DNA of 64,000 nt from Rhizophagus irregularis (lineage: Eukaryota; Glomeromycota; Glomeromycetes; Glomerales; Glomeraceae): assembly GCF_026210795.1 (NCBI RefSeq), contig NC_089442.1, positions 434,001 through 498,000 of the forward strand, in the 5' to 3' direction. Both the position numbers and the translations under genes were made by a program. The notes below the pieces were generated by a model. That model worked only from the letters and a program-made list of their open reading frames with translations, had not been told where the DNA came from and did no database searches. Shown piece after piece: positions 1-63,641 of this stretch (its first letter is position 1; each line of letters begins with the position of its first letter).

Positions 1-25
1 ATATCAACAGAAATTTATTTATTAT

Positions 26-664
26 CCTGATATTAGGTGAGTTATTGTAATTGCAATGAAGACTTTTTTACGATTTAGTTCATGGGTCTGCACACGTATA
101 TATATGTCTAAGGTTTTCCAAATATATTATCTGTCGGGATTCTTTGTGAGTCTAGATGAAATCTGGTATATGTGCCTGAGTAAGCGTGGATGAGCGTTCT
201 GATATCAGCCTAGTAATTCAATAACTCATTTATCTGAGTGATCATAGGATAACCTTTTTTATTTCTATTATAGATCATTATCGATTATTTAATTATCTCC
301 AAGTTACTATCATAAAGACCAGGTAGAAATCCAGAAAATTCTGTGTCCAAAAAATATCCCTGATATTAGGTGAGTTATTGTGTTTAGAGCTTTAATTGCA
401 ATGAAGGCTTTTTTACGATTTAGTTCATGGGTCTGCTCACGTATATATATGTCTAAGGTTTTCCAAATATATTTATTTGTCGGGATTCTTTGTGAGTCTA
501 GATGAAATCTGGTATATGTGCCTGAGTAAGCGTGGATGAGCGTTCTGATATCAGCCTAGTAATTCAATAACTCATTTATCTGAGTGATCATAGGATAACC
601 ACTTTTATTTCTATTTATAGATCCGTAATTATCGATTATCTCCAAGTTATTATCATAAAGACCA
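26..664. repeat. Two-copy tandem repeat, period about 333 bp
   Basis: Two nearly identical units lie in direct order, about 26-322 and 359-664. Both run from cctgatattaggtgag to a shared end at ccaagtta(c/t)tatcataaagacc. The second unit has about 12 extra bases (around 387-398) and a few substitutions. No open frame is conserved between the copies, so this looks like duplicated non-coding or transposon-derived DNA. Confidence 0.85.
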
Positions 665-1590
665 TTTATTAATAATAGCTTTAAGCAAAAGTTTTTATAA
701 ATTAACTTAATTAAATTTTTACTTTTTAAATTTTTTTGTAATTAGTCAATTTTAAATTTTATTAAATAAAGAATAAAATATTGCATTAATATTTACAAAA
801 TTATTATTTTTTTTTAAATCATGTTACATAAAAATTAGTTAACTTTAAATTATTAAATAAAGAAACAAAATATTATCTGTTATATTAAAATTTACTAAGT
901 TGTCCCTGAGATGATTAATTTTGAATTCGTCAATTGTGATTTCATTATTATATAATAAAATTCGCTCGCCAATTACAGCCGAGAATAAATGTTTAATAGA
1001 TTCGCCTAAAATATAACAGTCTAATGAAGTAACCATTCTGAGATATTACTGTAAGTAATATTATTATAATAGGGAAAGAAGATAGTATTTTATATACTTT
1101 TCCGAATACATCGTGACTAATATGTGTTATTTTAAGTATTTTAAACACATCGCAATGAGTAAAATATATTATTTTATTATGTTTAATAATGTGACTGTTA
1201 AGACTTAAGATATTACTATAATAAATTTACATTAAGCGAGCTTCTGGTTTTTGAGTTTTTCTGGTTCAATTTTTCTTAATTTTTTTTTTAAAAAATTTAA
1301 CGAATATCACTAAATAAATATTCTCTTTTTGTAAGGAAATCGGAAAATTTTTTTAGGAAGCCAGTTTTTCAGTTATTTGAACAGGAAATTCGGCAAGTAA
1401 AAAAAAAAATTCTTTCATATTTTGGCGCTTATTTTATATAATTTAATTTAATTTAATTTATAAAATACTACCGATCCTACGATAATATAATTAATAACTT
1501 ACATCCTATATTATCAAGAATTTAGTATGTATTATTCCTAGATTAGAAACTTTACAATATCTTTAAAAATCACAATATGATATCACTAAG
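665..1590. other. AT-rich spacer, no gene seen
   Basis: Very AT-rich DNA with homopolymer runs and a short ttaat-type tandem repeat near 1440-1460. The only open frame (minus strand, 845-1036) has no recognisable domain and no neighbouring exon. Confidence 0.6.
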
Positions 1591-16650: not shown

Positions 16651-16752
16651 GACGGATTTGGCTCACTTGATGATCGGAATGTCGATCATTTTTTGCTAAA
16701 ATTAACGTTAATTTTGGCCAAAATGATCAACATTCCGATCATCAAATCCGCC
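16651..16752. repeat. About 100-bp near-perfect palindrome (foldback element)
   Basis: The left arm gacggatttgg...tgatcggaatgtcgatcatttttt is mirrored by the right arm aaaatgatcaacattccgatcatcaaatccgcc around the centre taacgtta (16704-16711). The arms differ by a few bases and a short insertion on the left. Such a foldback is typical of a tiny MITE. It sits about 180 bp upstream of the kinase start codon at 16935. Confidence 0.75.
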
Positions 16753-16934
16753 CATATGTCGATTATATTTTGATCTGCATTGTACTGTATGTTATGTTAC
16801 AATGGCGTAATTATTATAACATGATTTTCAATTTGATTTAAATTTTGTAACAATCATCGCATATTTGTGTAATTGTTTTGACACCTCCTCTTCCGATTTT
16901 TTTTTTTTTTAAAAAAAACAAAAAAATTTAAATC

Positions 16935-18956
16935 ATGTCATCTCAAGATGATATTATATGCAAAAGCTGTAATAAAATATGTACAGATATTCAGTTAAAA
17001 TGGTGTAGACCATGTGCAATAAATAACTTAAAAAAAAATTTCACGAACTGGACTAGTGGAAATGAAAAGATTGATGAGTTTATTCAACAAATGCAATTGA
17101 AAATAGAAAGTTTTGATAATATAATTGTTGAATGGATACCTTATGAACAATTCAATAATGTTAAAAAAACAAAGAAAGATGGTTTTGCTACAGCAATATG
17201 GAAGGATGGTTTATTAAAATATAATGAAGAAGAAAGGACATATAAAAGAATACTATCTAATATAGAAGTTTTTTTAAAATGCTTGAACAATTCACAAAAT
17301 GTCATTAATGAATTTTCAAATGAGGTATGAAACTTCTATTTTTTGTAATTTAACCCTTAAAAGTACTTTTTTATAACAACTTTTACATTTATTAACAGAA
17401 ATATTCCATTAAAGTAAGTGAAATTGATGAATTTGATATTCCTAAAGTATATGGAATATCCCAAAATCCAGATACAAATGATTATATTATAGTACTTGAT
17501 AATAGTTATTATTGTAAAGAATGTGGTGAAATATATATGGAAAGATGGTCAAAATGGTGTAGACTATGTCAAATAAATAATTTAGAACTAAATCATAGTG
17601 GAAATAAAAAAATTGATGAATTCATTCAAGAAATGCAATTGAAAATTGAAATATATGATGATATAATTGTTGAATGGATACCTTATAACCAATTCAATAA
17701 TGTTAAAAAAATAGGCAAAAATGGCTTTACTACAGTAATATGGAAGAATGGTCCATTAGAATATAATAATAATAAAGAAAAGTTTAATTATGAAAGAAAA
17801 CCAAATAAAAAAGTCACTTTAAAATGCTTGAATAATTCTCAAAATGTTATCAGTAACTTATTAAATGAGGTATAAACTTCTAATTTTTGTAATTTAATCC
17901 TTAAAAGTACTATATAATAACAACTTTTATATTAAACAGGCTAAAGCATATTCCATTAAAGGACCAGAATATGATTATGATATTCCTAGAATATATGGAA
18001 TATCCCAAAATCCAGACACAAAAGATTATATTATTATTCTTGGTGGTTTTTGTGAAAATTGTGGTGAAATATTCACAAATATATATTATCAATGGTGTAA
18101 ACCATGTGACTTAATACAAAATTTTGCTAACTGGACTAGTGGAAATGAAAAAATTGATGAATTCATTCAAGAAATGCAATTAAAAATTGAAAATCCAGAA
18201 TATAGAATTGTAGAATGGATACCTTATGACCAGTTTAATATTATTAAAGAAATATGCAAAGATAATTTTGCTAGAATGTATTTGGCAATATGGAAAGATG
18301 GTCCATTAGAATATAATTACAATGAAGAAAAGCATAAGCATGAAAGACAACCTAATAAAGAAGTCATTTTAAAATGCTTGAATAATTCACAAAGTGTTAT
18401 TAATGACTTATTGAATGAGGTATTGAGACTTCTAATTTTTGTAATTTAATCCTTAAAAGCACTTTATTATAACAACTTTTACATTTAATAGGTTAAGGGA
18501 TATGATGATATTACTGAAATATATGGAATATCCAAAAATCCAAATACAAATGAATATATTATTGTATTTAAAGATGGCTATTATTGCAAAAACTGTGGTA
18601 AAATATATACAGATATAGGTTTTGATTGGTGTAAATCATGTCATATAAATACTTTAAAACAAAATTTTGTAAATTGGACTAGCGGAAATGAAAAAATTGA
18701 CAATTTTATTCAGAAAACGCAATTAAAAATTAACAGTCATCATGATACAATTGTTGAATGGATACCATATGACCAGTTTAATAATATTAAAGAAATAGGT
18801 AAAGGTGGATTTGCTACAGTCTATTTTGCAATATGGAAAGATGGCCCATTAGAATATCAATTTGGTGAAAATAAACATGTAAAAACACCTAATAAAGAAG
18901 TTGCTTTAAAATGCTTATATAATTCACAAAATATTACTAATGAATTTTTAAATGAG
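16935..18956 (+). repeat. Four tandem copies of a zinc-ribbon plus N-lobe exon unit
   Basis: Exons 2-4 are 471, 480 and 465 bp and are separated by 70-74-bp introns. All begin with a segment ending YGIS(Q/K)NP(D/N)T(N/K)(D/E)YII and all end in ...NEV at a phase-0 GTAT donor. Intron sequences also resemble each other (ttttgtaatttaa, then taacaactttta). Duplication of a whole exon plus intron unit therefore explains the array. Confidence 0.85.
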
Positions 18957-19900
18957 GTATGAAATTTATTTGTTTAGAATTTATTAAACACTTCTTAATA
19001 ATGATTGTTTTTACTTTTTGATAGGTTGGTGCATACTCTATTAGTTATAATATAATTCTCAGAATATGTGGAATATCCAAAAATCCAGATACAAATAACT
19101 ATATTATTGTACTTGAATATGCAAATGGTGGAAATCTTGATAATTACAATAATAATATCATCAGGAATCATAATTGGAATAGAAAATTGTATGTACTAAG
19201 TGAAATTGTTACAGGTCTTAAAAAAATTCATGAAAATGAAATAGTTCATCGTGATTTCCATACAGGAAATATATTGGTATCATTTCGTAATGATGCTTAT
19301 GATGGCCATGGAAATTCTATTAGTAATATATATATTTCAGATATGGGATTATGTGGAGAAGTTAGTAATATAGACAAAACAAACATTTATGGAGTTATGC
19401 CATTTGTAGCTCCTGAAGTATTAAGAGGAAAGCCATACAATCAAACAGCAGATGTATATAGTTTTGGTATGATGATGTATCATATTGCAACTGGAAGACA
19501 ACCTTTTGCCAATTGTGCTCATGATAGTGTTTTAGCATTAAATATATGTAACGGAATTAGACCTGAAATAAATGAACAAGAAGCACCAAAATTTTATATT
19601 GATTTAATGAAAAATTGTTGGGATCCAGATCCAGATAAGAGACCAAGTGCTATTGAAATTCATAAATTGGTCATAGATTTTTTCCGTAGTGATCATGAAA
19701 TTGAAAGGCAAATTGAAGAAGCAGAGGAATATAGAAAAACAAATTTTTTATCTACTGGAAATAGTCAATCAATTCATCCACAAGCTTATTATACTTCTCG
19801 ATTACTCAATCAATTTACAAAAGAACTTCCAAAACATGATGATACTTACAATATTTCAGCAGAAGTTATTGATTTTACAGAGTATGTAACATTTACTTAA
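16935..19900 (+). CDS. Zinc-ribbon protein kinase with multiplied N-lobe units
   Basis: Five exons join in phase 0: 16935-17324, 17399-17869, 17940-18419, 18492-18956, 19025-19900, giving about 893 residues. Exons 1-4 each encode a C-x2-C...C-x2-C zinc ribbon (CKSC/WCRPC, CKEC/WCRLC, CENC/WCKPC, CKNC/WCKSC), a linker (IDEFIQEMQLK) and EWIPYDQF leading into a kinase N-lobe. Only the fourth has a full glycine loop and lysine (IGKGGFATVY, VALKC). The first two are degraded (KKDGFATAIW, KNGFTTVIW); the third keeps a partial loop. Exon 5 carries a full C-lobe: hinge YIIVLEYANGG, catalytic loop HRDFHTGN, DMG in place of DFG, VAPEVLRGK, TADVYSFGMM and CWDPDPDKRPS. The fourth unit plus exon 5 should be an active Ser/Thr or tyrosine-kinase-like enzyme; the first three units probably bind partners. 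An alternative last junction (19885 to 19952) would replace the tail and end at 20095. Confidence 0.8.
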
Positions 19901-20095: not shown

Positions 20096-21039
20096 ACACG
20101 ATGTAAGTCTAATATAAAAACAATTAACACAATTTTATAATTAGGATAATATTTTTTTTTATTGATATCAATGTATTTTGTTCAACACTAATTATAGAGT
20201 ATATGTAATTTTTTTTTTTACATAAATAAAAAATTAGTTTGTAATTGAGCAAATAAAATATAATATTTGAAAATATTATTACCTGATATTCTGTTAATTT
20301 TATGGTGATTAAAATGTTAATAATAAATATACTAGCAATTATCAATTTTTTAAACCTATTATTGGCGAATTATTGCCAATAATAGCTTCAATAGTGGATT
20401 TGTTGCTAACATTTTCTTTCAAAATAATAAAAATTTCCTATTATGTGGTTATATTTTGTATATTAAAATTATAATATACTTAATTACAGATAAATATATT
20501 AAAGATTAAATTATGAAAATATTGTGAAAATATTTATCAAGACGGAATGCAAAAAAAATTGATATTGTAATTTATAGAAATATGGTATACAATTTAAAAT
20601 ATATAATTTAATCTAGGCTGGGACTTTATCATTACTCTCGTCAAAAGAAAGAATTTGTTAATCTCTCACCATAATATAGAATTATTACATCTTTTATTGC
20701 TAATTAAGGGTAGTAAATAAATATTTAATGACTATATTAATATGCTTTAAATTATATAATAAGTTTAAAAAAAGAACCATACTATATATATATATATACA
20801 TACAGTATATATATATATTAATATTTTTTTCAAGCATCATCGCTTGGCAAGTTCCTTTCTACGATGTTTACTTAAGATGAAATCGGAGAAACTATAGTCC
20901 GGAAGCCAATATGTTAACTTTCAACAGTATATATTGGCTTGAATTAAATTTAATTAAAGAATAAAAAATTTATCAAAATTCTCATTATAAGTATCTTTTT
21001 GTAAATGTTTATCATAATAAAAATTAAGATGATGCCGAT
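20096..21039. other. Spacer with two small hairpins and a TA microsatellite
   Basis: No gene. A 10-bp stem with 8-base loop (TATTATTGGC / GCCAATAATA, 20357-20384) lies about 450 bp after the kinase. A second inverted repeat (AAGCCAATAT / ATATTGGCTT) lies around 20901-20942. TA runs occur at about 20783-20820. Confidence 0.55.
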
Positions 21040-21272
21040 AGGACCCAGAAATATATATAAAAGGGTCAGGTTTGAGTTTGCGTATTTTGAACTAAAAAAT
21101 CATGAAAATCTTTCCTTTTTTAGATAATTTTTGATAATGCCAGTCAGAATTTTATTTCCTATTATAGTAACCGACTGGCATTATCATAATTCCGGCCCTG
21201 AAAAAATGCGTACAGCTCATAGTAAAAAATTTTTTTCATCACCTGACCCCTATATATATATTTCTGGGTCCT
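21040..21272. mobile_element. Miniature inverted-repeat element (233 bp) with 8-bp flanking duplication
   Basis: The ends are strong inverted repeats: AGGACCCAGAAATATATATA at the left and its near-mirror ending tttctgggtcct at the right. ATGCCGAT flanks both sides (21032-21039 and 21273-21280). An inner inverted repeat (gataatgccagtc / gactggcattatc) lies in the middle. The open frame 21131-21364 crosses the element and is not a gene. A degraded relative is at 1591-1722. The 8-bp duplication points to hAT-like mobilisation. Confidence 0.85.
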
Positions 21273-21280
21273 ATGCCGAT

Positions 21281-32693: not shown

Positions 32694-35404
32694 ATGTCGA
32701 TAACCGAAAAAAAAAATAATAATTCCAATTACGTTGATTGGATAAATAAAGCAATCGAGAAAAATTTTATCACATATTATGATCATACCGAATTTAAAAA
32801 TAAAAAAGAAATCGAAAATAATAATAATAATTCGGTTGGAAAAATTTTTAAAGTAAATTGGAATAACACTAACACTAATTTAGTCGTGAAATCATCATAC
32901 GATTCTGATGTTAAAAAAATTATTAATGAGGTATTTTTAAAAATTTTTAACATTATTTTTTTTTTTATATATATATAATTAATTAATAAATTCACGAAAA
33001 ATCTTTTAATTTATCAAATTGTATAACAAATAGCTCAAAGCGCATAAAGAAGTTGATTTTCATATAAATATTTTAAGAATTTATGGAATTTCAAAAATAG
33101 AAAATCAGTATTCGTTAGTTTTGGAGTACGCGAATGGTGGATCTTTGTATTCTTATTTAAAAGAGAATTTTACCATTCTTGAATGGGATGATAAATATTG
33201 TTTAGCGTTACAACTCGCAGGTGCTATAGACTTTATTCATAATAAAGGTATAATTCACTGTAATCTGGTATGTATTAATTATTTAAAACATTTATTTTTG
33301 TTATTATATAAATTAATTATCGTTATTACTATCCTTTATATCTTAGCACGAACAGAATGTATTGATACATAAAAATAATATAAAAGTTGCAGATTTTGGC
33401 TTATCTAAAAGGGTGAATGAAACATCAAATTATTCTAATAAAGCGTTAGATTTTCTGCCTTATTCAGATCCAACAAACTTGAATGTTACGTATAACATCA
33501 ATCAACCTCGTATAACGAATTTCAAATCAGATATTTACAGTATTGGAATTCTTCTCTGGCTATTATCAAGCGGTCGTAGACCTTTTTATGATGAAGGTAC
33601 AAAATACGATATAAATTTAGCCATGGATATAATAAATGGAAAAAGAGAAGAAATTATTAAGGGTACGCCTGTTGAATATAGTGATATATATACAGGTAAT
33701 AAATTTTACGCATCACGACATCACGATCGATGGGATGGGATGATTTTATATGATAATTAATGATATAAAATTTTATTTTTAGCGTGTTGGTCAGATGATC
33801 CTGATGAAAGGCCTTCTTTACAAATAGTAATTTCATGTCTTCAATCAATAATTGATCATTCCATCAAATCTATTACAAATGAAATTGAGAAAGAATCGTT
33901 AAATAATGATTTTGATAACATGATGGATAATTATGATTTATCTCTAAATGACGACAATCCCTCAAATCTTGTGTCAAATAATTTCACTGATTTAAATAAT
34001 AACGTTGAAGAAAATGTTGATAAAATAATTGACTACGTTATCAAATTGCATGATGAATTTGGTTACACTATTACTGAAACAGAAGAAATCATTAGACAAC
34101 TTTTTGAAAGTATTAGTAAACCTATACAAATTAAAATTTTTGATTGGCTTATTAAAAATCAAACATCATCTAAATATATTTTCTTTTGTGGCTTTCTTTA
34201 CTTTAATGGAATTATTGTAAAAAGAAATGAAGATAAAGCATATGGTTTGTTATTAAAAGCATCAAAAGATAATTATCCTATTGCTCAAGTCTATTTTGGT
34301 AAATTGTACAAAGATCCTAAAAAATCCTTTTATTGGTATCAAAAATCAGCAGAAAATGGAAATAAACTTGCATTACTTTATTTAGGAAATTGTTATGAAA
34401 ATGGAGAAGGAACTAATCAAAATTTTGAGAAAGCAATCTTTTCATATAAAAAGGTAGCAAATAATGGAAATAAAAAAGTGCAATATGATTTAGGTTATTT
34501 TAATCAAAATAGAGAAGGAATTGAACAAAATTTAGAAAAGACCATTTATCGGTATAAAGAAGCAGCAAAAAATGGAAATAAAATTGCACAATATAAGTTA
34601 GGATATATTTATGAAAATGGTAAAAGAATGCAAAGAGATATAAATAAAGCAATTAAATGGTATGAAAGATCAGCTAAACAAGGGTTTAGTTATGCGCAAA
34701 CTAAGCTGGGATATATATATGAAAATGAAGAAGAAATTGACCAAGATTTAGAAAAATCAATTTATTGGTATACAAGAGCAGCAAAAGGTGGAAATAAAAT
34801 TGCACAATCAAATTTAGGATATTTTTACGAAAAAGGTAAAGGAACGCAGAAAGATATTAAGAAAGCAATTGAATGGTATGAAAGATCAGCTGAACAAGAG
34901 TATGGTAATGCGCAATGTAGTCTGGGATATTTATATGAAAAGGGAGAAGAAATTGATCAAGATTTGGAAAAAGCAATTTATTGGTATAAAAAAGCAACAG
35001 AAAATGGTTACGAAGCTGCGCATTATTATTTGGGTAAATGTTATCAATATGGTATTGGTATTGAAAAAGATGAAGTTAAAGCATTTGAGCATTATAAAAA
35101 ATCAGCTGAAAAAGGATATTTAGGTGGGAAATATATACTTGGTTATTGTTATGAAAATGGTATTGGAACTAATATAGATAAAGAAAAGGCGATTGAATTG
35201 TATAAAGATGCTGCTGAAGGAGGATATGAAGATGCAAAAAGAATGCTAGAACTCCAATCATCTTACGATAGCTTGAAAAAAAATCATTCAATGGCCGAAT
35301 CACAAAATTTCTTAATTCCGATTTGTTGTTCTATCTTTTTATTTTGTATATTTTGTAGAATAATCCTATACATTTTAAATTGTATTTTCAAAGTGTTTTT
35401 CTAA
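32694..35404 (+). CDS. Kinase-Sel1 repeat protein A (pseudokinase, C-terminal membrane anchor)
   Basis: Four exons (32694-32930, 33034-33267, 33347-33695, 33783-35404) join with GT-AG sites in conserved phases to give 813 residues. Residues about 1-300 form a kinase fold: N-lobe VVK lysine and INEV helix, hinge YSLVLEYANGGSLYSYL, catalytic loop HCNLHEQN where HRDLxxxN is expected, DFGLSKR, KSDIYSIGILLWLLSSGRRP and CWSDDPDERPS. The glycine loop is replaced by an Asn run (IENNNNNSVGK) and the catalytic Asp by Asn, so phosphotransfer is doubtful. After an acidic linker come about 10 Sel1 repeats of ~36 residues (KAIxWYEKSAxxGNxxAQxxLGxxYENG), a solenoid expected to bind partner proteins. The last ~35 residues are strongly hydrophobic with Cys (FLIPICCSIFLFCIFC), a likely tail anchor that the paralogues lack. 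Closest to gene D. Confidence 0.9.
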
Positions 35405-36722: not shown

Positions 36723-39654
36723 ATGTCAACGACTAAAGAACAAACTAACGATTCCGAATATGTTGATTGGATAAAAAAAGAAATTGAGAATAATAATATC
36801 ACATATTTTAATCATAACGAGTTTACAAATAAACAAGAATTTGAAAATAGTATCAGTTCAGTTGGAAAAATATTTAAAGTAAATTGGAGTAATAATGATA
36901 ATACTCGTTTGATCGTGAAAACACCTGGATTGAATGTTAAAAAAATTATAAATGAGGTATTTTAAAATTTTAAACAAACATATTTTGTAATAATTAATAA
37001 TTTCATAAAAATCTTTATTTTTATCAAAATGTATAACAGCTCAAAATACGGAAAGAAATTGATTCTCATATAAATATTTTACGAATTTATGGAATTTCAA
37101 AATTAGACAATAAATATTCTTTAGTTTTAGAGTACGCGGATGGTGGGTCACTGTATTCTTACTTGAAGAAGAATTTCACTAAACTTGAATGGAACGATAA
37201 ATATCGTTTAGCGTTACAACTAGCAAGTGCTGTAGAATATATTCACGATAAAGGTATAATCCATTGTAATCTGGTATGTATTATAATTTTATTTTTCGTT
37301 ACTTTAATTAATACACACTGCTAAATACATTATTAAAATTTAATATTTATTTAGCATGCTCACAATGTGCTAATACATAAAGGCCATATTAAAGTAGCAG
37401 ATTTTGGCCTATCTAAGAAGGCGACTGAAACATCAAATTATTCTGACGATGTATTGGGTACAATACCCTACATAGATCCAAAATATTTGAGTAATGTATG
37501 CGATATCCAATACGGGAGTAAACTTTATACATTAAATTTTAAATCAGATATATATAGTATAGGAGCTCTTTTTTTGTTATTATCAAGCGGACGTAGACCT
37601 TTTTATGATGATGAAAGTATAAAATATGATGCAAATTTAGCTATGGATATAATGATGGGAAAAAGAGAAAAAATTATTGGAGGTACCCCTGCTAAATATA
37701 GTGATTTATATACAGGTAATAAATTTACGTGTCAAAGAGAGATGCGATGATTTATATAATAAATTAATTATGTTATAATTCTAATTTTTTTTTTTTAGCG
37801 TGTTGGAAAAATGATCCTAATGAAAGACCATCTATTCAACAAGTCGTTTTATGTCTTAAATCAATGATTAAACAAGATATTAATGAGGAAAAAAATTCTA
37901 CTAAATTTATTAAAAATGTGATTGAAAAAGAACCATCAAATGAAGATTTTGATAACATGATGGATAATGATTATAATTTCTTTATAGGCGATGATTTTTC
38001 GAATTCTTTGATAGATGATGATTTTGATTTAAACATGAATGATATTATACAAAAAAATTTATTAATTGACATAACAGATTCGGATGACGTTGGAAAAATT
38101 ATTGATAAGTTGATAGACCATTTAATCAAATTGCATGATGAATTAGGTTATGGTTTTGCAGGAGCAAAACAAATTATTGAACAAAATATTAAATATATCA
38201 ATCAACCTTTAGACGACATTCTTGATTGGCTTAATGACAATCAAATATCATCTAAATATATTTTCTTTCATGGTTTTCTTTATTTTAATGGAATTATTGT
38301 AAAAGGAGATGAAGATAAAGCATTTGCATCATTTTCAAAAGCATCAAAAGATAATTATTCTATGGCTCAAGTTTATTTATGTAAACTGTATAAAGATCCT
38401 AAAAAAGCCTTTTATTGGTATCAAAAATCGGCAGAAAATGGAAATAAACTTGCACAATTTTATTTAGGTAAATGGTATGAAAATAATGAAAAAGATGATC
38501 TTAAAGCATTTGAATGTTATGAGAAAGCAGCAAAAAGTGGAAATAAAATTGCTCAATTAAATTTAGGATATTTTTATGATCATGGTAAAGGAACGCAAAG
38601 AAATAAAGATAAAGCAATTGAATGGTATGAAAAATCAGCAAAACAAGAATGTAGTAATGCACAACTTTTTCTTGGAATATTATATAAAGGAACGAAAAAA
38701 GATTTTAAAAATGCATTTTATTGGGTTGAAAAAGCAACAAAAAATGGAAATAGAATTGCTCAATTTTATTTAGGTAAATATTATTATTTTGGTACAGGAG
38801 TTAAAAAAGATTATGGAAAATCATTTGAATGGTATGAAAAATCAGCTAAGCAAGGATATATTGATGCGTTATATGCTTTAGGATATTTATATTTAAAAGG
38901 TAAAGGCACTGAAAAAAATTTAGAGAAAGCACATTATTTGATTGAAAAAGCGGCAGAAAATGGAAATAAATTTGCTCAACATCATTTAGGTGCAATTTAT
39001 CAAAATGATAAGGGAACGAAAAAGAATATAAAAAAAGCAATTGAATGGTATGAAAGATCTGCTGAAAAAGGATATAGTATAGCACAATGTAATTTGGGTT
39101 ATTTATATGGAAAAGGAAAAGAAATTGACCAAGATTTGAAAAAATCATTATATTGGTATGAAAAAGCAGCAAAGAGCGGAAATAAATTCGCACAATATAA
39201 TTTAGGATATATTTATGAAAATGGTATAGGAATACAAAAAGATATAAATAAAGCAATTATATGGTATGAAAAATCAGCTAAACAAGATTATGGTAGTGCA
39301 CAATGTAGTCTAGGATATTTATACGAAAATGGCAAAGGAATTAATCAAGATTTAGAAAAATCCATTTATTTGTATAAAAAAGCAGCAGAAAATGGATACG
39401 TCGCCGCGTATCATTGTTTGGGTAAATGTTATCAAGATGGAATTGGTATTGAAAAAAATGAAGTTAAAGCATTTGAGAATTATAAAAAATCAGCTGAAAA
39501 AGGTTATTTAAATGGAATATATAATCTTGGATACTGTTATGAAAATGGAATTGGAGCCGAAATTGATAAAGAAAAGGCAGTTGAATTGTATGAAGATGCT
39601 GCTAAAAGAGGAAATAGAGATGCACAAAAAAGATTAAAAATGATTAATTCATAA
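36723..39654 (+). CDS. Kinase-Sel1 repeat protein B
   Basis: Exons 36723-36956, 37040-37273, 37355-37715 and 37799-39654 give 894 residues. The kinase-like domain has IVK lysine, hinge YSLVLEYADGGSLYSYL, catalytic loop HCNLHAHN (Asn in place of catalytic Asp), intact DFGLSKK, KSDIYSIGALFLLLSSGRRP and CWKNDPNERPS. There is no GxGxxG loop (EFENSISSVGKIF). An Asp-rich linker (about residues 300-380) leads to roughly 13 Sel1 repeats. Repeats 4-7 include shortened units (KGTKKDFK) shared with D and E. No membrane anchor; it ends soon after the last repeat. The N-terminal exon is closest to gene E (TNKQEFENS, VKTPGL). Probably a cytosolic pseudokinase-type scaffold; the absence of both the glycine loop and catalytic Asp makes catalysis unlikely. 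Confidence 0.9.
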
Positions 39655-42359: not shown

Positions 42360-45300
42360 ATGCTGGAAAATGATTTTGATTATATTGGTTGGATAGAAAA
42401 AGCAGTTGAGGATAATTACATCCCGAATTTTGATCATACTAAGTTCATAAATAAAGAAGAAATCGGTAGTAGAATAATTAAAGCAAACTTGAGTGAAACT
42501 GACACAATTTTGGTCGTTAAATCAGGTGGACTTAAAGAAATTGTAAATGAGGTATATATTATATTTTTGGTATAATAACGTATAATCAATAATTTATATC
42601 TATCTCATTAATATGTATGATATAACAGCTCAGAATTCAGAAAGAAGTTGACTTTCATGCAAACATCCTACGATTTTGTGGAATTTCAAAACCAGATAAT
42701 CAGTATTCATTAATTTTAGAGTACGCTGATGATGGGACATTGTATTCTTACTTAAAAAAGAATTTCACTAAGCTTGAATGGGATGATAAATATCGTTTAG
42801 CGTTACAACTTGCAAGTGCTGTAGAATGTATTCATAATAAAGGAATAATCCATTGTGATTTGGTACGTACAATATTTGAGCATTATTTATTTTTACTCTA
42901 GCGTATATTAATTAATGATAATAATAATCTATCTTTAGCATGCGCACAATGTGTTAGTACACAAAGGCGTTATTAAAGTAGCAGATTTTGGCTTATCTAA
43001 GAAAGCAATTGAAGCATCAAATTATTCTGCTAAAGAAGTATATGGTTTAATGCCTTATGTAGATCCAAGGCACTTAGCCTTTGCATTTGATATTACATGC
43101 ACTATCCAACTCAGTATAATGGATTTCAAATCAGATATTTATAGTATAGGAGTTCTTTTCTGGTTACTATCAAGTGGACGTAGACCTTTTTGTGATGAAA
43201 GTATACAATACGATAATCGTTTAGCCATGAATATAATAAGTGGGAGAAGGGAAAAGTTTATTGAAGGTACGCCTATTAAATATAGTAATTTATATACAGG
43301 TAATAAATTTTACGCATCACGATGGTATCGAGATAATTTATATAATAAATTAAGATTTAAAATTATATTTTTTTTTCTAGCATGTTGGGCAAGTGATCCT
43401 AATGAAAGGCCATCTATTCAACAAGTTGTCTCAGACCTTAAATCAATAGAAAATAATGAAGCAGTATATTCTACCAAATGTACTACTAAAAATGAAATCA
43501 AAAAAGAACCGCCAAATAAAGATATTGATTACGTGATGGATAATGATCATTCTGATTTATTTATAGACGATGATTTCCCAAATTCCAAGATAGATGATGA
43601 CGTTGATTTAAACACGAATGATTTTATACAAAATAATTTAGTACTTAATTTAACTGATTTAACTGATAATGTTGAAAGAATAATTGATCAATTAATCGAC
43701 CATTTAATGAGAATGCATGATGAGATGGGTTATAGTTTTATGGAGACAAAACAAGCCATTGATCAAAATATTAAAAATATCAACCGACCTTTACTGGACA
43801 AGATTTTTGACAGGCTTATTAAAAATCAAACATCATCTAGATATATTTTCTTTCATGGTTTTCTTTACTTTAATGAAATTATTGTAAAGAGAGATAATAG
43901 TAAAGCATTTGAGTTATTTTCAAAAGCATCAAAAGATAATTGTCCTATCGTTCAAGTTTATCTAGGTAAAATGTGTAAAAATCCTAAAGATTCTTTTTAT
44001 TGGTATCAAAAATCGGCAGAAAATGGAAATAAGCTTGCACAATTTTATTTAGGCACATGTTATGAAAATGGAAGAGGTGTTGAAAAAGATTATTTTAAAG
44101 CATTTGAATGTTATGAGAAAGCAGCAATAAATGGAAATAAATATGCACAACTAAATGTAGGTAGATATTATTTTTATGGTACAGGTGTTGGAAAAGATTA
44201 TGATAAATCATTTGAATGGTATACAAAACCTGCCATACGAGAAAATAAATTGGCTCAATTTTATTTAGGAATTCATTATTATTTTGGTAGAGGAATTGAA
44301 AAAGATTATGTTAAATCGATTGAATGTTATGAAAAATCAGCTAAGCAAGGACATAGTTCAGCACAATATATTCTGGGACATTTATATGAAGTAGAAAAAG
44401 GAATTAAGCAAGATTTAGAAAAATCATTTTATTGGTACAAAAAAGCAGCAAAGAATGGAAATAGATTCGCGCAATTAAATTTAGGATATTTTTATGAAAA
44501 TGGTAGAGGAACGCAAAAAGATATGAAAAAGGCAATTGAATGGTATGAAAAATCAGCTAAACAAGAGTATGGTAACGCACAATGTAGTCTAGGGCATTTA
44601 TACGGAAAAGGGGAAGAAATTGACCAAGATTTAGAAAAATCATTATACTGGTACGAAAAAGCAGCAATGAATGGAAATAAATTTGCACAATATAATTTAG
44701 GGTATATTTATGAAAATAGTATAGGAACACAAAAAGATATGAAAAAAGCGATTAAATGGTATGAAAAATCAGCTGAACAAGAATATGGCAACGCACAATG
44801 TAGACTGGGATATTTATATGAAAAAGGAGAAGAAATTGACCAAGATTTAGAAAAATCATTATACTGGTACGATAAAGCAGCAATGAATGGAAATAAATTC
44901 GCACAATATAATTTAGGGTATATTTATGAAAATGGTATAGGAATACAAAGAGATATGAAAAAGGCAATTAAATGGTATGAAAAATCAGCTGAACAAGAAT
45001 ATGGCAACGCACAATGTAGTCTGGGATATTTATACGAAAATGGCAAAGGAATTGATCGGGATTTAGAAAAATCATTATACTGGTACGAAAAAGCAGCAAT
45101 GAATGGAAATAAATTTGCACAATATAATTTAGGGTATATTTATGAAAATATTATAGGAACACAAAAATATATGAAAAAGGCAATTGAATGGTATGAAAAA
45201 TCAGCCAAACAAGAATACGGTAACGCACAATGTAGTCTAGGATATAAATACGAAAATGGCAAAGGAATTGATCAAGATTTAAAAGAAGCTATTTATTGGT

Positions 45301-57428: not shown

Positions 57429-60310
57429 ATGTCGATAACTGAAAAACAAAATAGTAATTTAAATTACATTCGTTGGATAAAAAAAGCGATCGAAAATAAT
57501 TTCATTATATACTATGATCATACCGAATTTAAAAATAAAAAAGAAGTTGATAATAGTAATAACTCGGTCGGAAAAATATTTGAAACAAACTGGAATAGTA
57601 ACACTAATTTAGTCGTAAAAACATCGTACGAATTGGATATTAGAAAAATTGTAAATGAGGTATTTAATATTTTATATAATGTAATTACGCATATTTCAAT
57701 ATTTTTAATATTTTTACGTTTATCAAAATGTATAAAAGCTCAAATTGCAGAAAGAAGTCGATTTTCATTTAAATATTTTACGAATTTATGGAGTTTCAAA
57801 ATTGGATAATCAGTATTCGTTAGTATTGGAGTACGCGGATGGTGGGTCATTGTATTTTTACTTGAAGGGGAATTTCACTAAACTTGAATGGGATGATAAA
57901 TATTGTTTAGCGTCACAACTCGCAAGTGCTATAGACTTTATTCATAGTAAAGGTATTATCCACTGTAATCTGGTACGTATTAACTATTAAACATTTATTT
58001 TTGTTTTATATAAATTAATTATTATTATTCTTTATATCTTAGCACGAAGAGAATGTACTGATACATAAAAATAACATAAAAGTTGCCGATTTTAGCTTGT
58101 CTAAAAGAGCGAACAAAGCATCAAATTATTCTAACAAAGTACCAGACTTCCTGCCTTATTTAGATCCAAAAATTCTGAATAATGTATATACAATGAAATG
58201 TGAAAGTCAACTCTGCAAAATGAATTTCAAATCAGATATTTACAGTATTGGAGTTCTTTTCTGGCTATTGTCAAGCGGACGTAGACCTTTTTATGATAAA
58301 GATACACAATACAACATAAGTTTAGCCATGGATATAGTAAATGGTAAAAGAGAAGAAATTATTAAAGGCACGCCTGTTGAATATAGCGATATATATACAG
58401 GTAATAAATTTTACTTATCACGGTGTGTGAGATTAATTTTAATAATTAATGATGTAAAATACTCTTTTTTAGCGTGTTGGTCGGATGATCCTGATGAAAG
58501 GCCATCTATTCAAATAGTAGTTTCATGTCTTAGGTCAATTATTGATCATTCTATCAAATCTATTACAAACGAAATTAAGAATGAGGCATTAGATAATGAT
58601 TTTGAATATATGTTTGATGATTATGACTTGTCTATACATGACAACATCCCAAATATTGTGATTGATGATTTCAGTTTAAACACGAGTGACCTTATGAAAA
58701 AAAATTTATTACTTAATTTATCTGATTTAACAAATAATGTTGAAAAGATTGTTGACAAACTAATCGACCATTTAATTAGATTGCATGATGAATTGGGTTA
58801 TGATCCTACTGAGATAAAAGAAATCATCAGTCAAAATATTCAAGATATAAATAAATCTTTACAAATTAAAATTTCCGATTGGCTTATTAGAAATCAAACG
58901 TCATCTAAATATATTTTCTTTCATGGTTTTCTTTATTATAATGGAATTATTGTAAAGAAAGATGAAGATAAAGCATTTGGATTGTTTTCAAAAGCATCAA
59001 AGAGTAATTATCCCATTGCTCAATTTTATTTAGGTAAATTGTATAAAGATCCTAAAAAAGCTTTTTACTGGTATCAAAAATCGGCAGAAAATGGAAATAA
59101 ACATGCACAATTTTATTTGGGTAAATGTTATGAGGAGGGAAAAGGTATTGAAAAAGATGGTTTTAAAGCATTTGAATGCTATGAAAAAGCAGTAAAAAAT
59201 GGAAACAAATTTGCACAATTAAGTTTAGGATATTTTTATGATAATGGTATAGGAACACAAGTTGATGAAGAAAAAGCAATTGAGTGGTATGAAAAATCAG
59301 CCATACAGGAATATGATAGCGCTCAACTTTGTCTTGGTTTTCTATATAAAAGAAAGAAAAAAGAATCAAAAAAATCATTTCACTGGTTTGAAAAGGCAGC
59401 AAAAAACGGAAGTAAAGTTGCACAATTTTACTTAGGCAAATATTATTATTACGGTACAGGAATTGAAAAAGATTACGGTAAATCATTTGAATGGTATGAA
59501 AAATCAGCTAAACAAGGAGATAATAATGCATTATATGCTTTAGCGAATTTATATATGAAAGGTAGAGGCACTGAAAAAAATTTAGAAGAAGCATCTTATT
59601 TGATTGAAAAGGCGGCAAAAAAAGGAAATAAATTTGCACAACTTCATTTAGGTACAATTTATCAAAATGATAAGGGAACGAAAAAGAATATAAAAAGAAC
59701 AATTGAATGGTATAAAAAATCAGCTGAACAAGGATATAGTATAGCACAATATAATCTGGGATATTTATATGAAAGAGGAGAAGGAATTGATCAGAATATA
59801 GAATTATCATTGTATTGGTACGAAAAGGCAGCAAAGAATGGAAATAAGTTCGCACAATTAAATTTAGGATATTTTTATGAAAATGGTATGGGAACGCAGA
59901 AAGATATAAAAAAGGCAATTAATTGGTATGAAAAATCAGCTAAACAAGAGTATGGTAATGCGCAATGTAGTCTAGGATATTTGTATGAAAAAGGCAAAGG
60001 AATTGATCAAGATTTAGAAAAAGCAATTTATTGGTACAAAAAGGCAACAGAAAATGGCTATGAAGCCGCGTATTATTATTTAGGTAAATGTTATCATTAT
60101 GGAAATGGTGTTGAAAAAAATGAAGTTAAAGCATTTGAGCATTATAAAAAATCAGTTGAAAAAGGATATTTAAATGGAATATATATGCTGGGATACTGTT
60201 ATGAGAATGGAATTGGAACTAATATTGATAAAGAAAAGGCGGTTAAATTGTATAACGATGCTGCTAAAAGAGGAAATAGAGATGCACAAAAAAGACTGGA
60301 ACTTATATAA
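57429..60310 (+). CDS. Kinase-Sel1 repeat protein D (double pseudokinase)
   Basis: Exons 57429-57659, 57739-57972, 58043-58400 and 58473-60310 give 886 residues. The catalytic loop is HCNLHEEN (Asp replaced by Asn) and the metal-binding motif is DFSLSKR instead of DFGLSKR. The glycine loop is absent (EVDNSNNSVGKIF). Lysine (LVVK) and the NEV helix remain. These changes make it the clearest pseudokinase of the five. KSDIYSIGVLFWLLSSGRRP and CWSDDPDERPS follow, then an acidic linker and about 13 Sel1 repeats. No membrane tail. Intron 3 (58401-58472, 72 bp) is a multiple of three without a stop, so reading straight through it stays open, as in gene C. The N-terminus and exon 3 match gene A best (HE(Q/E)NVLIHKNNIKVADF). 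Confidence 0.9.
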
Positions 60311-60953: not shown

Positions 60954-63641
60954 ATGTCAATAGCCGAAAGGCAAACTAATGACTTCAATTATGCTGATTG
61001 GATAGAAAAAGCAGTTGAGAATAATTATATCATATATTTTAATTATAACGAGTTTACAAATAAACAAGAATTCGAAAATAGCGTTAGTTCGGTTGGAAAA
61101 ATATTTAAGGCAAATTGGAATAACAATGATACCCTTTTAGTCGTGAAAACACCTGGATTGGATGTTAAAAAAATTATTAATGAGGTATTTTAAATGAGAT
61201 ATTTTAAAATTTCACATATTTTGTATAATTATTAATTTCATAAAAATCTTATTCATCAAAATGCATACCGACCACCAGCTCAAAATGCAGAAAGAAGTTG
61301 ATTTTCATATAAATATTTTACGAATTTATGGAATTTCAAAATTAGACAATCAGTATTCGTTAGTTTTAGAGTATACGGATGGTGGATCATTGTATTCTTA
61401 CTTGAAAGAGAATTTCACTAAACTTGAGTGGAATGATAAATATCGTTTAGCGTTACAACTTGCGAGTGCTATGGGATGTATTCATAATAAAGGTATAATC
61501 CATTGTGATCTGGTATGTATTAAAGTTTTTTTTTGTTAATTTATTTTATTCCTACTTTTTAAATTAATACAATTATTATTAATTAATATTTAATGCATAT
61601 TTAGCATGCTTACAATGTGCTAATACATAAAGGCGATATTAAAGTAGCAGATTTTGGTCTATCTAAGAAAGCGACTGAAGCATCATATTATTCTGACCAT
61701 GATGTATTTGGTATAATACCTTATATAGATCCAAAATATTTGAATAATATATGCAATATCAAACACGGAAGTCAACAACTCTATAAAATAAATTTCAAAT
61801 CAGATATTTATAGTATAGGAGTTCTTTTCTGGCAATTATCAAGCGGATGTAGACCTTTTTATGATGAAGGTACAAAATACGATATAAGTTTAACCATGGG
61901 TATAATAAATGGAAAAAGAGAAGAAATTATTGATGGTACGCCTGTTGAATATAGTGATATATATACAGGTAATAAATTTTACGTATCAATCAACGATGAG
62001 ATGAGATAATTCATATAACATGAAATTATATATATTTTTTTTCTAGCGTGTTGGGCAGATGATCCTAATAAAAGGCCATCTATTCAACGAGTTGTTTTAG
62101 ATCTTAAATCAATAATATATCGAGAAAATAACGAAAAAACATCATATTCTACCAAATTTATTAAAAACGGAATTGAAAAGGGACAATCAAATGAAGACTT
62201 TGATAACATGATGGAGAATGATTTTGATTTAGTTATAGATTTCGATGACTCTGGTTCAAACACGAATGATTTTACACAAAATAATTTAGTACTTAATTTA
62301 GCTGATTTAACCGATAACGTTGAAAGAATTGATAAGTTGATCGACTATATAATCGAATTGCATGATGAGAAAAGTTGTAGTTTTAAAGAAGTGAAACGAA
62401 TTATTAATCAAAGTATTCAAAATATTAATAAGTCTTTACAAGTTGAAAATATCAAAAATCAAACATCATCTAAATATGTTTTCTTTCAGGGGTTTCTTTA
62501 CTTCAATGCAATTATTGAAAAGAGAGATAAGGGTAAAGCATTTGAGTTATTTTCAAAAGCATCGAAAGATAATTATCCTATCGCTCAAGTTTATTTAGGT
62601 AAAATGCGTAAAGATCCTAAAGATGCTTTTTATTGGTATCAAAAATCGGCAGAAAATGGAAATAAACTTGCCCAGTTTTATTTAGGAAAATGTTATGAAA
62701 ATGGAAATGGTACCGAAAAAGATGATTTCAAGGCATTTGAATGTTACGACATAGCAGCAAAAAATGGAAATAAATTTGCACAATTTAAATTGGGATATTT
62801 TTATTATAATGGTATAGGAACACAAATAGACAAAGAAAAATCAATTGTATGGTATGAAAAGTCAGCCATGCAAAATCATAGTGATGCACAACTTTGTCTT
62901 GGATTACTATATAAAAGAGAGGAAGAAGATTTAAAAGAAGCACTTTACTGGATTAGAAAAGCAGCAGAAAACGGAAATAAAGCTGCACAATTTTATTTAG
63001 GTAAATATTATTATTATGGTACAGGAATTGAGAAAGATTATGGCAAATCATTTGAATGGTATGAAAAATCAGCTAAACAAGGATATAATAATGCGCTATA
63101 TGCTTTAGCGCATTTATATATAAAAGGTAGAGGCACTGAAAAAAATTCAGAAAAAGCGTATGGTTGGATTGAAAAAGCGGCAGAAAATGGAAATAAATTT
63201 GCTCAATATCATTTAGGTGCAATTTATCAGAATAATAAGGGAACGAAAAAGAATATAAAAAAAGCAATTGAATGGTATGAAAAATCAGCTAGACAAGAGT
63301 ATGGTATTGCATAATGTAGTCTAGGTCATTTATGCGAAAAAGGCAAAGGAGTTGAACAAGATTTAGAAAAAGCAATTTATTGGTATAAAAAAGCAACAGA
63401 AAATGGGTATGAAGCCGCGTATTATTATTTAGGTAATATTGAAAAAGATGAAGTTAAAGCATTTGAGTATTATAAAAAATCAGCTGAAAAAGGATATTTA
63501 AATGGAATATATATGCATGGATACTGTTATGAGACTGGAATAGGAACTGAAATTGATAAAGAAAAGGCAGTTAAATGGTATAAAATTGCCGCTGAAAGGG
63601 GAAATAAAGATGCACAAAAAAGAGTAGAACTGATTGAATAA
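60954..63641 (+). pseudogene. Kinase-Sel1 repeat gene E with a nonsense codon in the Sel1 array
   Basis: Exons 60954-61184, 61279-61512, 61605-61968 and 62047 onwards follow the family plan. The kinase-like domain keeps HCDLHAYN, DFGLSKK and KSDIYSIGVLFWQLSSG, but lacks the glycine loop (EFENSVSSVGKIF). About 7 complete Sel1 repeats follow. In the eighth, where the paralogues read AQCSLG, the Gln codon is TAA (63312-63314), a C-to-T change. Downstream the same frame is open to 63639-63641 and encodes three more repeats, one with an in-frame loss of about 8 codons (YYYLGN-IEKDE). The truncated product would have 698 residues; it could still fold as kinase plus a short solenoid. Exon 1 is closest to gene B, but the second half of exon 3 (GTKYDI, PVEYSDIYTG) is closer to A and D. 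Confidence 0.85.

Follow-up and report, generated by a model that had tools for sequence, protein, structure and literature searches.

Arrays of Kinase N-Lobe Repeats Ahead of a Single Predicted Terminal Kinase in the Genome of Rhizophagus irregularis

The genome of Rhizophagus irregularis very probably contains genes built as arrays of kinase N-lobe repeats followed by one terminal kinase. We also consider it likely, with appreciably less confidence, that these genes encode long kinases in which arrays of non-catalytic N-lobe repeats, grown by exon duplication, precede a single catalytic kinase. As for function, we suggest only tentatively that the repeats might serve as a multivalent interaction array or as an allosteric array acting on the terminal kinase. 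One such gene lies in the 64,000-nucleotide stretch of DNA that we analyzed (the window), where positions 16935-19900 of the plus strand fit a single gene model, predicted from the DNA, of 893 codons plus a stop codon in five exons. The predicted protein, with a calculated size of about 100 kDa, contains four zinc-ribbon/N-lobe units and one C-lobe. An earlier note on this DNA had confined the feature to 16935-19024, an extent that proves too short since the gene needs exon 5. The features of the gene are as follows.

16935-17324, plus strand: exon 1, with the ATG, a C4 ribbon (Cys 16959-17015), linker, β1-β3 and the start of αC; the Gly loop is degenerate (KTKKDGF) and β4-β5 are absent
17325-17398, plus strand: intron 1 (GTATGA...CAG), 74 nt, phase 0
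17399-17869, plus strand: exon 2, with the end of αC, β4-β5, ribbon, linker lacking its NWT, β1-β3 and the start of αC; the loop reads KIGKNGF, its second Gly lost
17870-17939, plus strand: intron 2 (GTATAA...CAG), 70 nt, phase 0
17940-18419, plus strand: exon 3, with the layout of exon 2; the loop reads EICKDNF
18420-18491, plus strand: intron 3 (GTATTG...TAG), 72 nt, phase 0
18492-18956, plus strand: exon 4, the terminal unit, with ribbon Cys 18585-18641, Gly loop GKGGF at 18798-18812, β3 Lys at 18909-18911 and the presumed αC Glu at 18954-18956, the last codon of the exon
18957-19024, plus strand: intron 4 (GTATGA...TAG), 68 nt, phase 0
19025-19900, plus strand: exon 5, with the end of αC, β4-β5, the hinge and the C-lobe up to the stop codon

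All four introns are of the GT-AG type, the lengths of all five exons are divisible by three, and retention of any one intron would produce an in-frame stop. The role of the final codon of exon 4 as the αC Glu is our assumption, taken from RAF-type kinases. An additional short 3' exon after exon 5 is possible. By eye, an imperfect inverted repeat with a MITE-like look (GATGATCGGAATG...CATTCCGATCATC) lies just 5' of the gene at about 16656-16755, and a second MITE-like inverted repeat, with arms like GGACCCAGAAATATATATA and TATATATATTTCTGGGTCC, lies 3' of it at about 21033-21280. Elsewhere on the plus strand of the window, weak matches to the C-lobe (20-34 bits) occur in five pairs (33070-33682, 37070-37708, 42662-43268, 57775-58561 and 61315-61946), which look like more distant kinase genes or their remains.

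The four units are arranged head to tail with a spacing of 541-543 bp. The later three share 62-74% DNA identity with the first over 278 nt, and a 76-nt repeat is common to introns 1-3. This agrees with the four-fold repeat of a zinc-ribbon/N-lobe unit described in the earlier note, and because copies of the unit are found at numerous further genomic loci, its repetition in the window is more than chance. A C4 ribbon, a linker and N-lobe strands can be read in frame in every unit; the linker had been described as complete throughout, but part of it is gone from the second unit. Given that the PF07714 match is split between exon 4 (positions 4-51; 14.5 bits, below the cut-off) and exon 5 (positions 59-256), the exon border falls inside helix αC, straight after the residues NE. 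Exons 2-4 open with the end of αC, β4 and β5 (YGIS.NP.T..YIIV), and β5 is followed within a few residues by CxxC..WCxxC, the linker and β1-β3, which places the hinge-to-ribbon join inside these exons. The protein repeat can thus be read as ribbon-linker-N-lobe up to the hinge, with the exon as a permuted form of it. A cut at the hinge, as previously proposed, is correct for the protein repeat but not for the exon, which ends in αC. Likewise, the repeated exon is complete in units 2-4 but not in exon 1.

When exons 4 and 5 are joined, residues 546-816 of the protein form a full kinase domain (PF07714 4-256 of 258, E 5e-41, above the cut-off). Among PDB sequences it resembles MAP3K9 most closely (E 2e-20), followed by PKC-theta and plant CTR1. 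This domain carries GKGGF, VALK and NE, followed in exon 5 by the C-lobe motifs HRDFHTGN, SDMG and APE, and it is predicted to be catalytic. The claim that only the last N-lobe of the window gene has a glycine loop is borne out by the four loops listed above. The ribbon scores 20.9 bits against PF08772 in exon 1 and 17.3 bits in exon 4, with a gathering cut-off of 24.9, and a score of 25.2 bits is reached for the joined window protein alone. The joined protein also gives an above-cut-off match of 39 bits to PF08740 (BCS1_N), which we regard as spurious. AlphaFold models computed from an alignment of the four window units have mean pLDDT values of 39.8 for exon 4 and 38.7 for exon 3, too low to be usable.

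The same arrangement recurs across the genome (146.7 Mb, 32 contigs). Searching with window exon 4 gave 4880 first-look candidates; the best 150 matches, one of which contains a stop, fall into 74 clusters, and 37 of these clusters have more than one listed unit, mostly at a spacing of ~500-600 bp or multiples of it. Together with two further searches, there are at least roughly 111 clusters on 25 contigs, a count in which the exon 4 search contributes 75 clusters by merged coordinates instead of 74 and the third search contributes 48 of its 150 rows. Contig C14 holds 57 of the best 150 exon 4 matches, 53 of them in the stretch of about 254-1201 kb that contains the window. We examined a first set comprising the window and 20 chosen multi-hit clusters (118 units) and a random set of 12 clusters drawn from the 53 others (63 units). 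All 33 are arrays with at least two scored units and one C-lobe downstream (21/21 in the first set, 12/12 in the random set). Within the sequence stretches examined, each array has one C-lobe, located after the last unit; the upstream repeats are N-lobes only, and no complete bilobal pseudokinase was found beside the kinase. Arrays of the first set have 3 to 9 scored units, counts that omit units scoring 100 or less (pieces at L009, L019 and L028) and, at L010 and L023, the units on the minus strand. Random-set counts likewise omit units under 100 (pieces at L032, L033, L035 and L037). Broken unit pieces occur at these seven loci, and the C-lobe is split into two open pieces at L014, L027, L035, L038 and L039. 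A strict motif pattern was found in the 33 loci 23 times for HRD..N, 30 times for DxG and 26 times for APE, the C-lobe of L031 being truncated by the end of the stretch examined. Tandem exon duplication, and the pairing of loop-less upstream N-lobes with one complete terminal kinase, both proposed for the window, are supported and recur in the loci sampled; an architecture that had been called unusual is, within this genome, common. At L010, the mapped array has a second array as its head-to-head neighbor (1-1543, minus strand), with about 500 bp between the first units of the two. A 1016-aa open frame at L041 (C16:256200-262700, minus strand), which also holds a CxxC..WCxxC motif, was considered as an intronless array and rejected; it joins 23 Sel1 repeats (PF08238, E 4e-270) to the first unit of an array.

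A search with exon 5 gave 4004 first-look candidates, of which 134 were scored, and identified at least 134 C-lobe places (139 rows). Half of these (67) are found no more than 4.5 kb downstream of a listed unit cluster, and the other 67 lie elsewhere. We had expected C-lobe loci away from listed clusters to supply single-unit genes as a control, but among eight such loci chosen at random none was a single-unit gene and seven were arrays. Five of the seven (L046 and L048-L051) are ribbonless: β5 runs directly into a WTSGN-type linker, and the period is near 455 bp. The eighth C-lobe, at L047, has no unit within 3 kb, and the listed units end about 6 kb upstream. Here, at C11:4205732-4211722 (partly in L047), ~6 kb separates a ribbonless array from its likely C-lobe exon, and this gap is possibly an insertion. 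A ribbonless unit, searched against the genome, gave at least 150 matches in 39 clusters, with stops in 2 of the 150. Many of the listed ribbonless units are on contig C16, where a C-lobe at 2481540 comes after a run of ten consecutive units (2476511-2480991); a ribbonless cluster of 10 kb on contig C2 has 12 listed units in a span that fits about 22. What stays constant in the repeat, across the loci examined, is the N-lobe and not the ribbon. Since the five sampled arrays without ribbons keep their N-lobe repeats, ribbons cannot be the whole point of the arrays.

An intact GxG loop is present in 39 of 40 terminal units and in 4 of 180 non-terminal units when all sets are pooled. For terminal units the counts are 21/21 in the first set, 11/12 in the random set and 7/7 at the off-cluster C-lobe loci; for non-terminal units they are 3/97 (first units 0/21, internal units 3/76), 0/51 and 1/32, where one terminal and one non-terminal unit of the random set end before the loop and are scored as lacking it, and where the off-cluster counts cover pattern-caught units only (39 in 7 loci, with some units of L048 and L051 missing). 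The exceptional terminal unit, at L033, is broken, and the next piece still reads EIGKG. Other key residues are retained more widely. All 21 terminal units of the first set have the β3 Lys, the presumed αC Glu and the four ribbon Cys (two CxxC pairs), and 20 of the 21 first units have each of these; the corresponding numbers for internal units are 70/76, 58/76 and 73/76. In the random set, in which some rows are pieces or misaligned, the β3 Lys is present in 9/12 terminal and 40/51 other units and the presumed αC Glu in 10/12 and 31/51. The four Cys are found there in 12/12 terminal units and in 45/51 non-terminal ones (8/9 first units, meaning those whose profile match starts at position 14 or later, as in 9 of the 12 arrays, and 37/42 internal units). 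Across non-terminal units, the Lys thus remains in 90/97 and 40/51, and the Glu in 78/97 and 31/51, of the first and random sets. Degeneration therefore extends beyond the loop, which upstream units have almost always lost, to the Lys and Glu, one or other of which is missing from some of them.

Several observations bear on whether the units of an array belong to one message. GT-AG junctions that keep phase 0 can be placed at 102 of 118 unit-to-next borders in the first set, with a median intron of 72 nt; acceptors were picked to fit phase 0, so this indicates that such a model is available and not that it is used. Placement failed at the other 16 borders, six of which have donors such as GTAC or GTTT that lie outside the script pattern. 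The introns appear short for promoters. No Met precedes the ribbon in window exons 2-4, and none does so in 84 of 97 non-first units of the first set; the remaining 13 have one, so we rejected the absence of Met as a clean rule. In a scan of the window and L009-L043, two units were found in one open exon at L042 (330 aa) and L043 (334 aa), and they are thus read as one chain. We disfavor an origin of these intron-less junctions as retro-copies of spliced RNA, given that the DNA retains apparent remnants of intron ends; simple deletion seems likelier. The full splicing of the array genes, like their folding and function, is something we infer from the DNA.

Junctions of this kind would also suit a splicing reservoir, in which cassette exons 2 to n-1 are skipped variably to yield proteins with differing numbers of modules, or pseudokinases wherever splicing joins the C-lobe to an N-lobe lacking the loop. 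Window exons that are multiples of three with phase-0 borders are what this requires, as any skip keeps the frame and rejoins αC to β4, and the units are alike. However, alternative catalytic N-lobes should keep the Gly loop, and 176 of 180 non-terminal units lack GxG; the shortness of the placed introns also speaks against it, and we consider this explanation unlikely. Dscam-type genes likewise carry homologous exons in tandem, all sharing a phase. The predicted fungal array genes differ from them in that the upstream copies mostly lack a catalytic loop and so are not equivalent alternatives.

We then compared selection on the upstream and terminal units. Omega was estimated by a simple counting method on non-overlapping nearest pairs of the first set, and the AT-rich genome and likely gene conversion make the values rough. 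Overall, internal units have an omega of 0.62 [0.56-0.68] (36 pairs) and terminal units one of 0.68 [0.57-0.80] (10 pairs); that of the first units, at 0.87 [0.61-1.50] (7 pairs), does not clearly fall below 1. Internal units thus look as constrained overall as terminal ones. At the Gly loop, omega is 0.90 [0.65-1.24] in internal versus 0.39 [0.26-0.78] in terminal units, with overlapping intervals; the values are 0.55 [0.42-0.75] versus 0.36 [0.18-0.62] for β3-αC and 0.29 versus 0.41 for the segment before β1. Ribbon positions other than Cys are fast, with omega values of 0.83-1.08 and wide intervals. Column identity differs most at the loop (0.34 internal versus 0.83 terminal) and less at β3-αC (0.58 versus 0.80), and is alike in the ribbon (0.50/0.57), linker (0.63/0.67) and pre-β1 segment (0.74/0.78). 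The internal units are thus not in free decay; it is mainly the ATP loop that has been given up, and β3-αC less so.

These values weigh on a neutral ratchet, under which an array tolerates in-frame exon duplications and drifts in length, its upstream units being passengers constrained only against toxicity or misfolding. Copy number does vary (3-9 scored units, a listed run of ten, a 10-kb cluster), broken units exist, part of the family is ribbonless, and Lys and Glu are lost from part of the non-terminal units, all of which speaks for a ratchet. Yet overall omega in internal units is below 1 and like that of terminal units, and stops are rare in the best-scoring matches of the searches (1/150, 3/150, 3/150 and 2/150, in lists biased toward intact copies). 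A purely neutral origin therefore seems to us improbable.

In the first set, 74/76 internal units and all 21 terminal units match the unit profile from position 6 or earlier in one frame, and none of the 21 first units does. The join from β5 to ribbon that internal units share suggests that the repeat goes back to a single recombination of the C-lobe exon with exon 1. In this scheme, β5 of the C-lobe exon would have been joined to the ribbon of exon 1, creating an internal exon with phase 0 at both ends, and unequal crossing-over, suggested by the shared junctions and the spacing, would then have altered exon copy number with the frame intact. The units look like mosaics. In their β2-αC half, 27 of 31 terminal units are closest to the terminal units of other arrays (terminals being 33 of 181 units), while in the β4-β5/ribbon half 28 of 33 are closest to internal units (118 of 181), ten of them in the same array. 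Such a pattern, together with the fast non-Cys ribbon positions, could mean that upstream ribbon variants are donor cassettes moved into the terminal unit by gene conversion, diversifying what the active kinase recognizes. The same mosaics are expected from ordinary unequal crossing-over, however, and ribbonless arrays retain many N-lobe units, so that we give this explanation little credence. An assembly error or pseudogene cluster, finally, is hardly credible in spite of frame breaks at some loci, as the arrays lie on many contigs, their units have diverged, most frames are open and omega is below 1, and as passages on the published 32-chromosome assembly report uniform read coverage, if it is the same assembly (PMC10234402); recurrence at many diverged loci likewise makes an assembly error improbable.

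According to the reading that we favor, the window gene would belong to a large family of genes, every one of which gives one long protein. Such a protein would have a variable number of linker-N-lobe repeats, with or without a ribbon, each ending at the hinge, and would end in a complete TKL-like kinase made up of the last N-lobe together with the sole C-lobe. We propose that only the last N-lobe must bind ATP because it alone abuts the C-lobe. The upstream units would have lost the Gly loop and yet stayed under selection as folded, non-catalytic modules that may act on the terminal kinase, for example through N-lobe/αC contacts or by docking partners. Isolated N-lobes are usually unstable, which counts against folded modules. 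A bolder version, which taken as a whole we hold to be doubtful, is that the N-lobe array is a new signaling device: a chain of pseudo-N-lobes, tunable by copy number, that would recruit partners and activate or restrain the terminal kinase via αC/N-lobe contacts or the fast-evolving ribbons, possibly at more than 100 loci and as a recognition-like repertoire of the symbiont.

Like the TKL-type kinases MLK1/MAP3K9 and plant CTR1, the terminal N-lobe and C-lobe of an array make up a full kinase domain. To our knowledge, the TKL kinases described so far pair every C-lobe with a single N-lobe, whereas the window array has four N-lobes for one C-lobe. In pseudokinase-kinase tandems such as JAK JH2-JH1 and GCN2, and in plant tandem kinase proteins, a non-catalytic copy precedes the active kinase as a possible regulator, and that additional copy is a complete domain with both lobes. 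In contrast, it is the N-lobe alone that is repeated in the fungal arrays, in 3-9 scored units in the first set and often with a ribbon. As a rule, kinases are inherited with both lobes of the domain together. In the titles and abstract openings of the literature searched we found no description of a repeated N-lobe layout.

Many genes that multiply only the N-lobe, with the ATP loop reserved for the copy that touches the C-lobe, suggest that half a kinase can serve as a repeat module. The arrays also bear on the large kinase repertoire of Rhizophagus irregularis, for which 2,533 kinase genes were counted on a 32-chromosome assembly, in passages on kinase counts that do not mention repeated N-lobes (PMC10234402). 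Automatic annotation may split or miscount array genes. At the same time, the arrays permit a clear test of the effect of upstream units on the terminal kinase.
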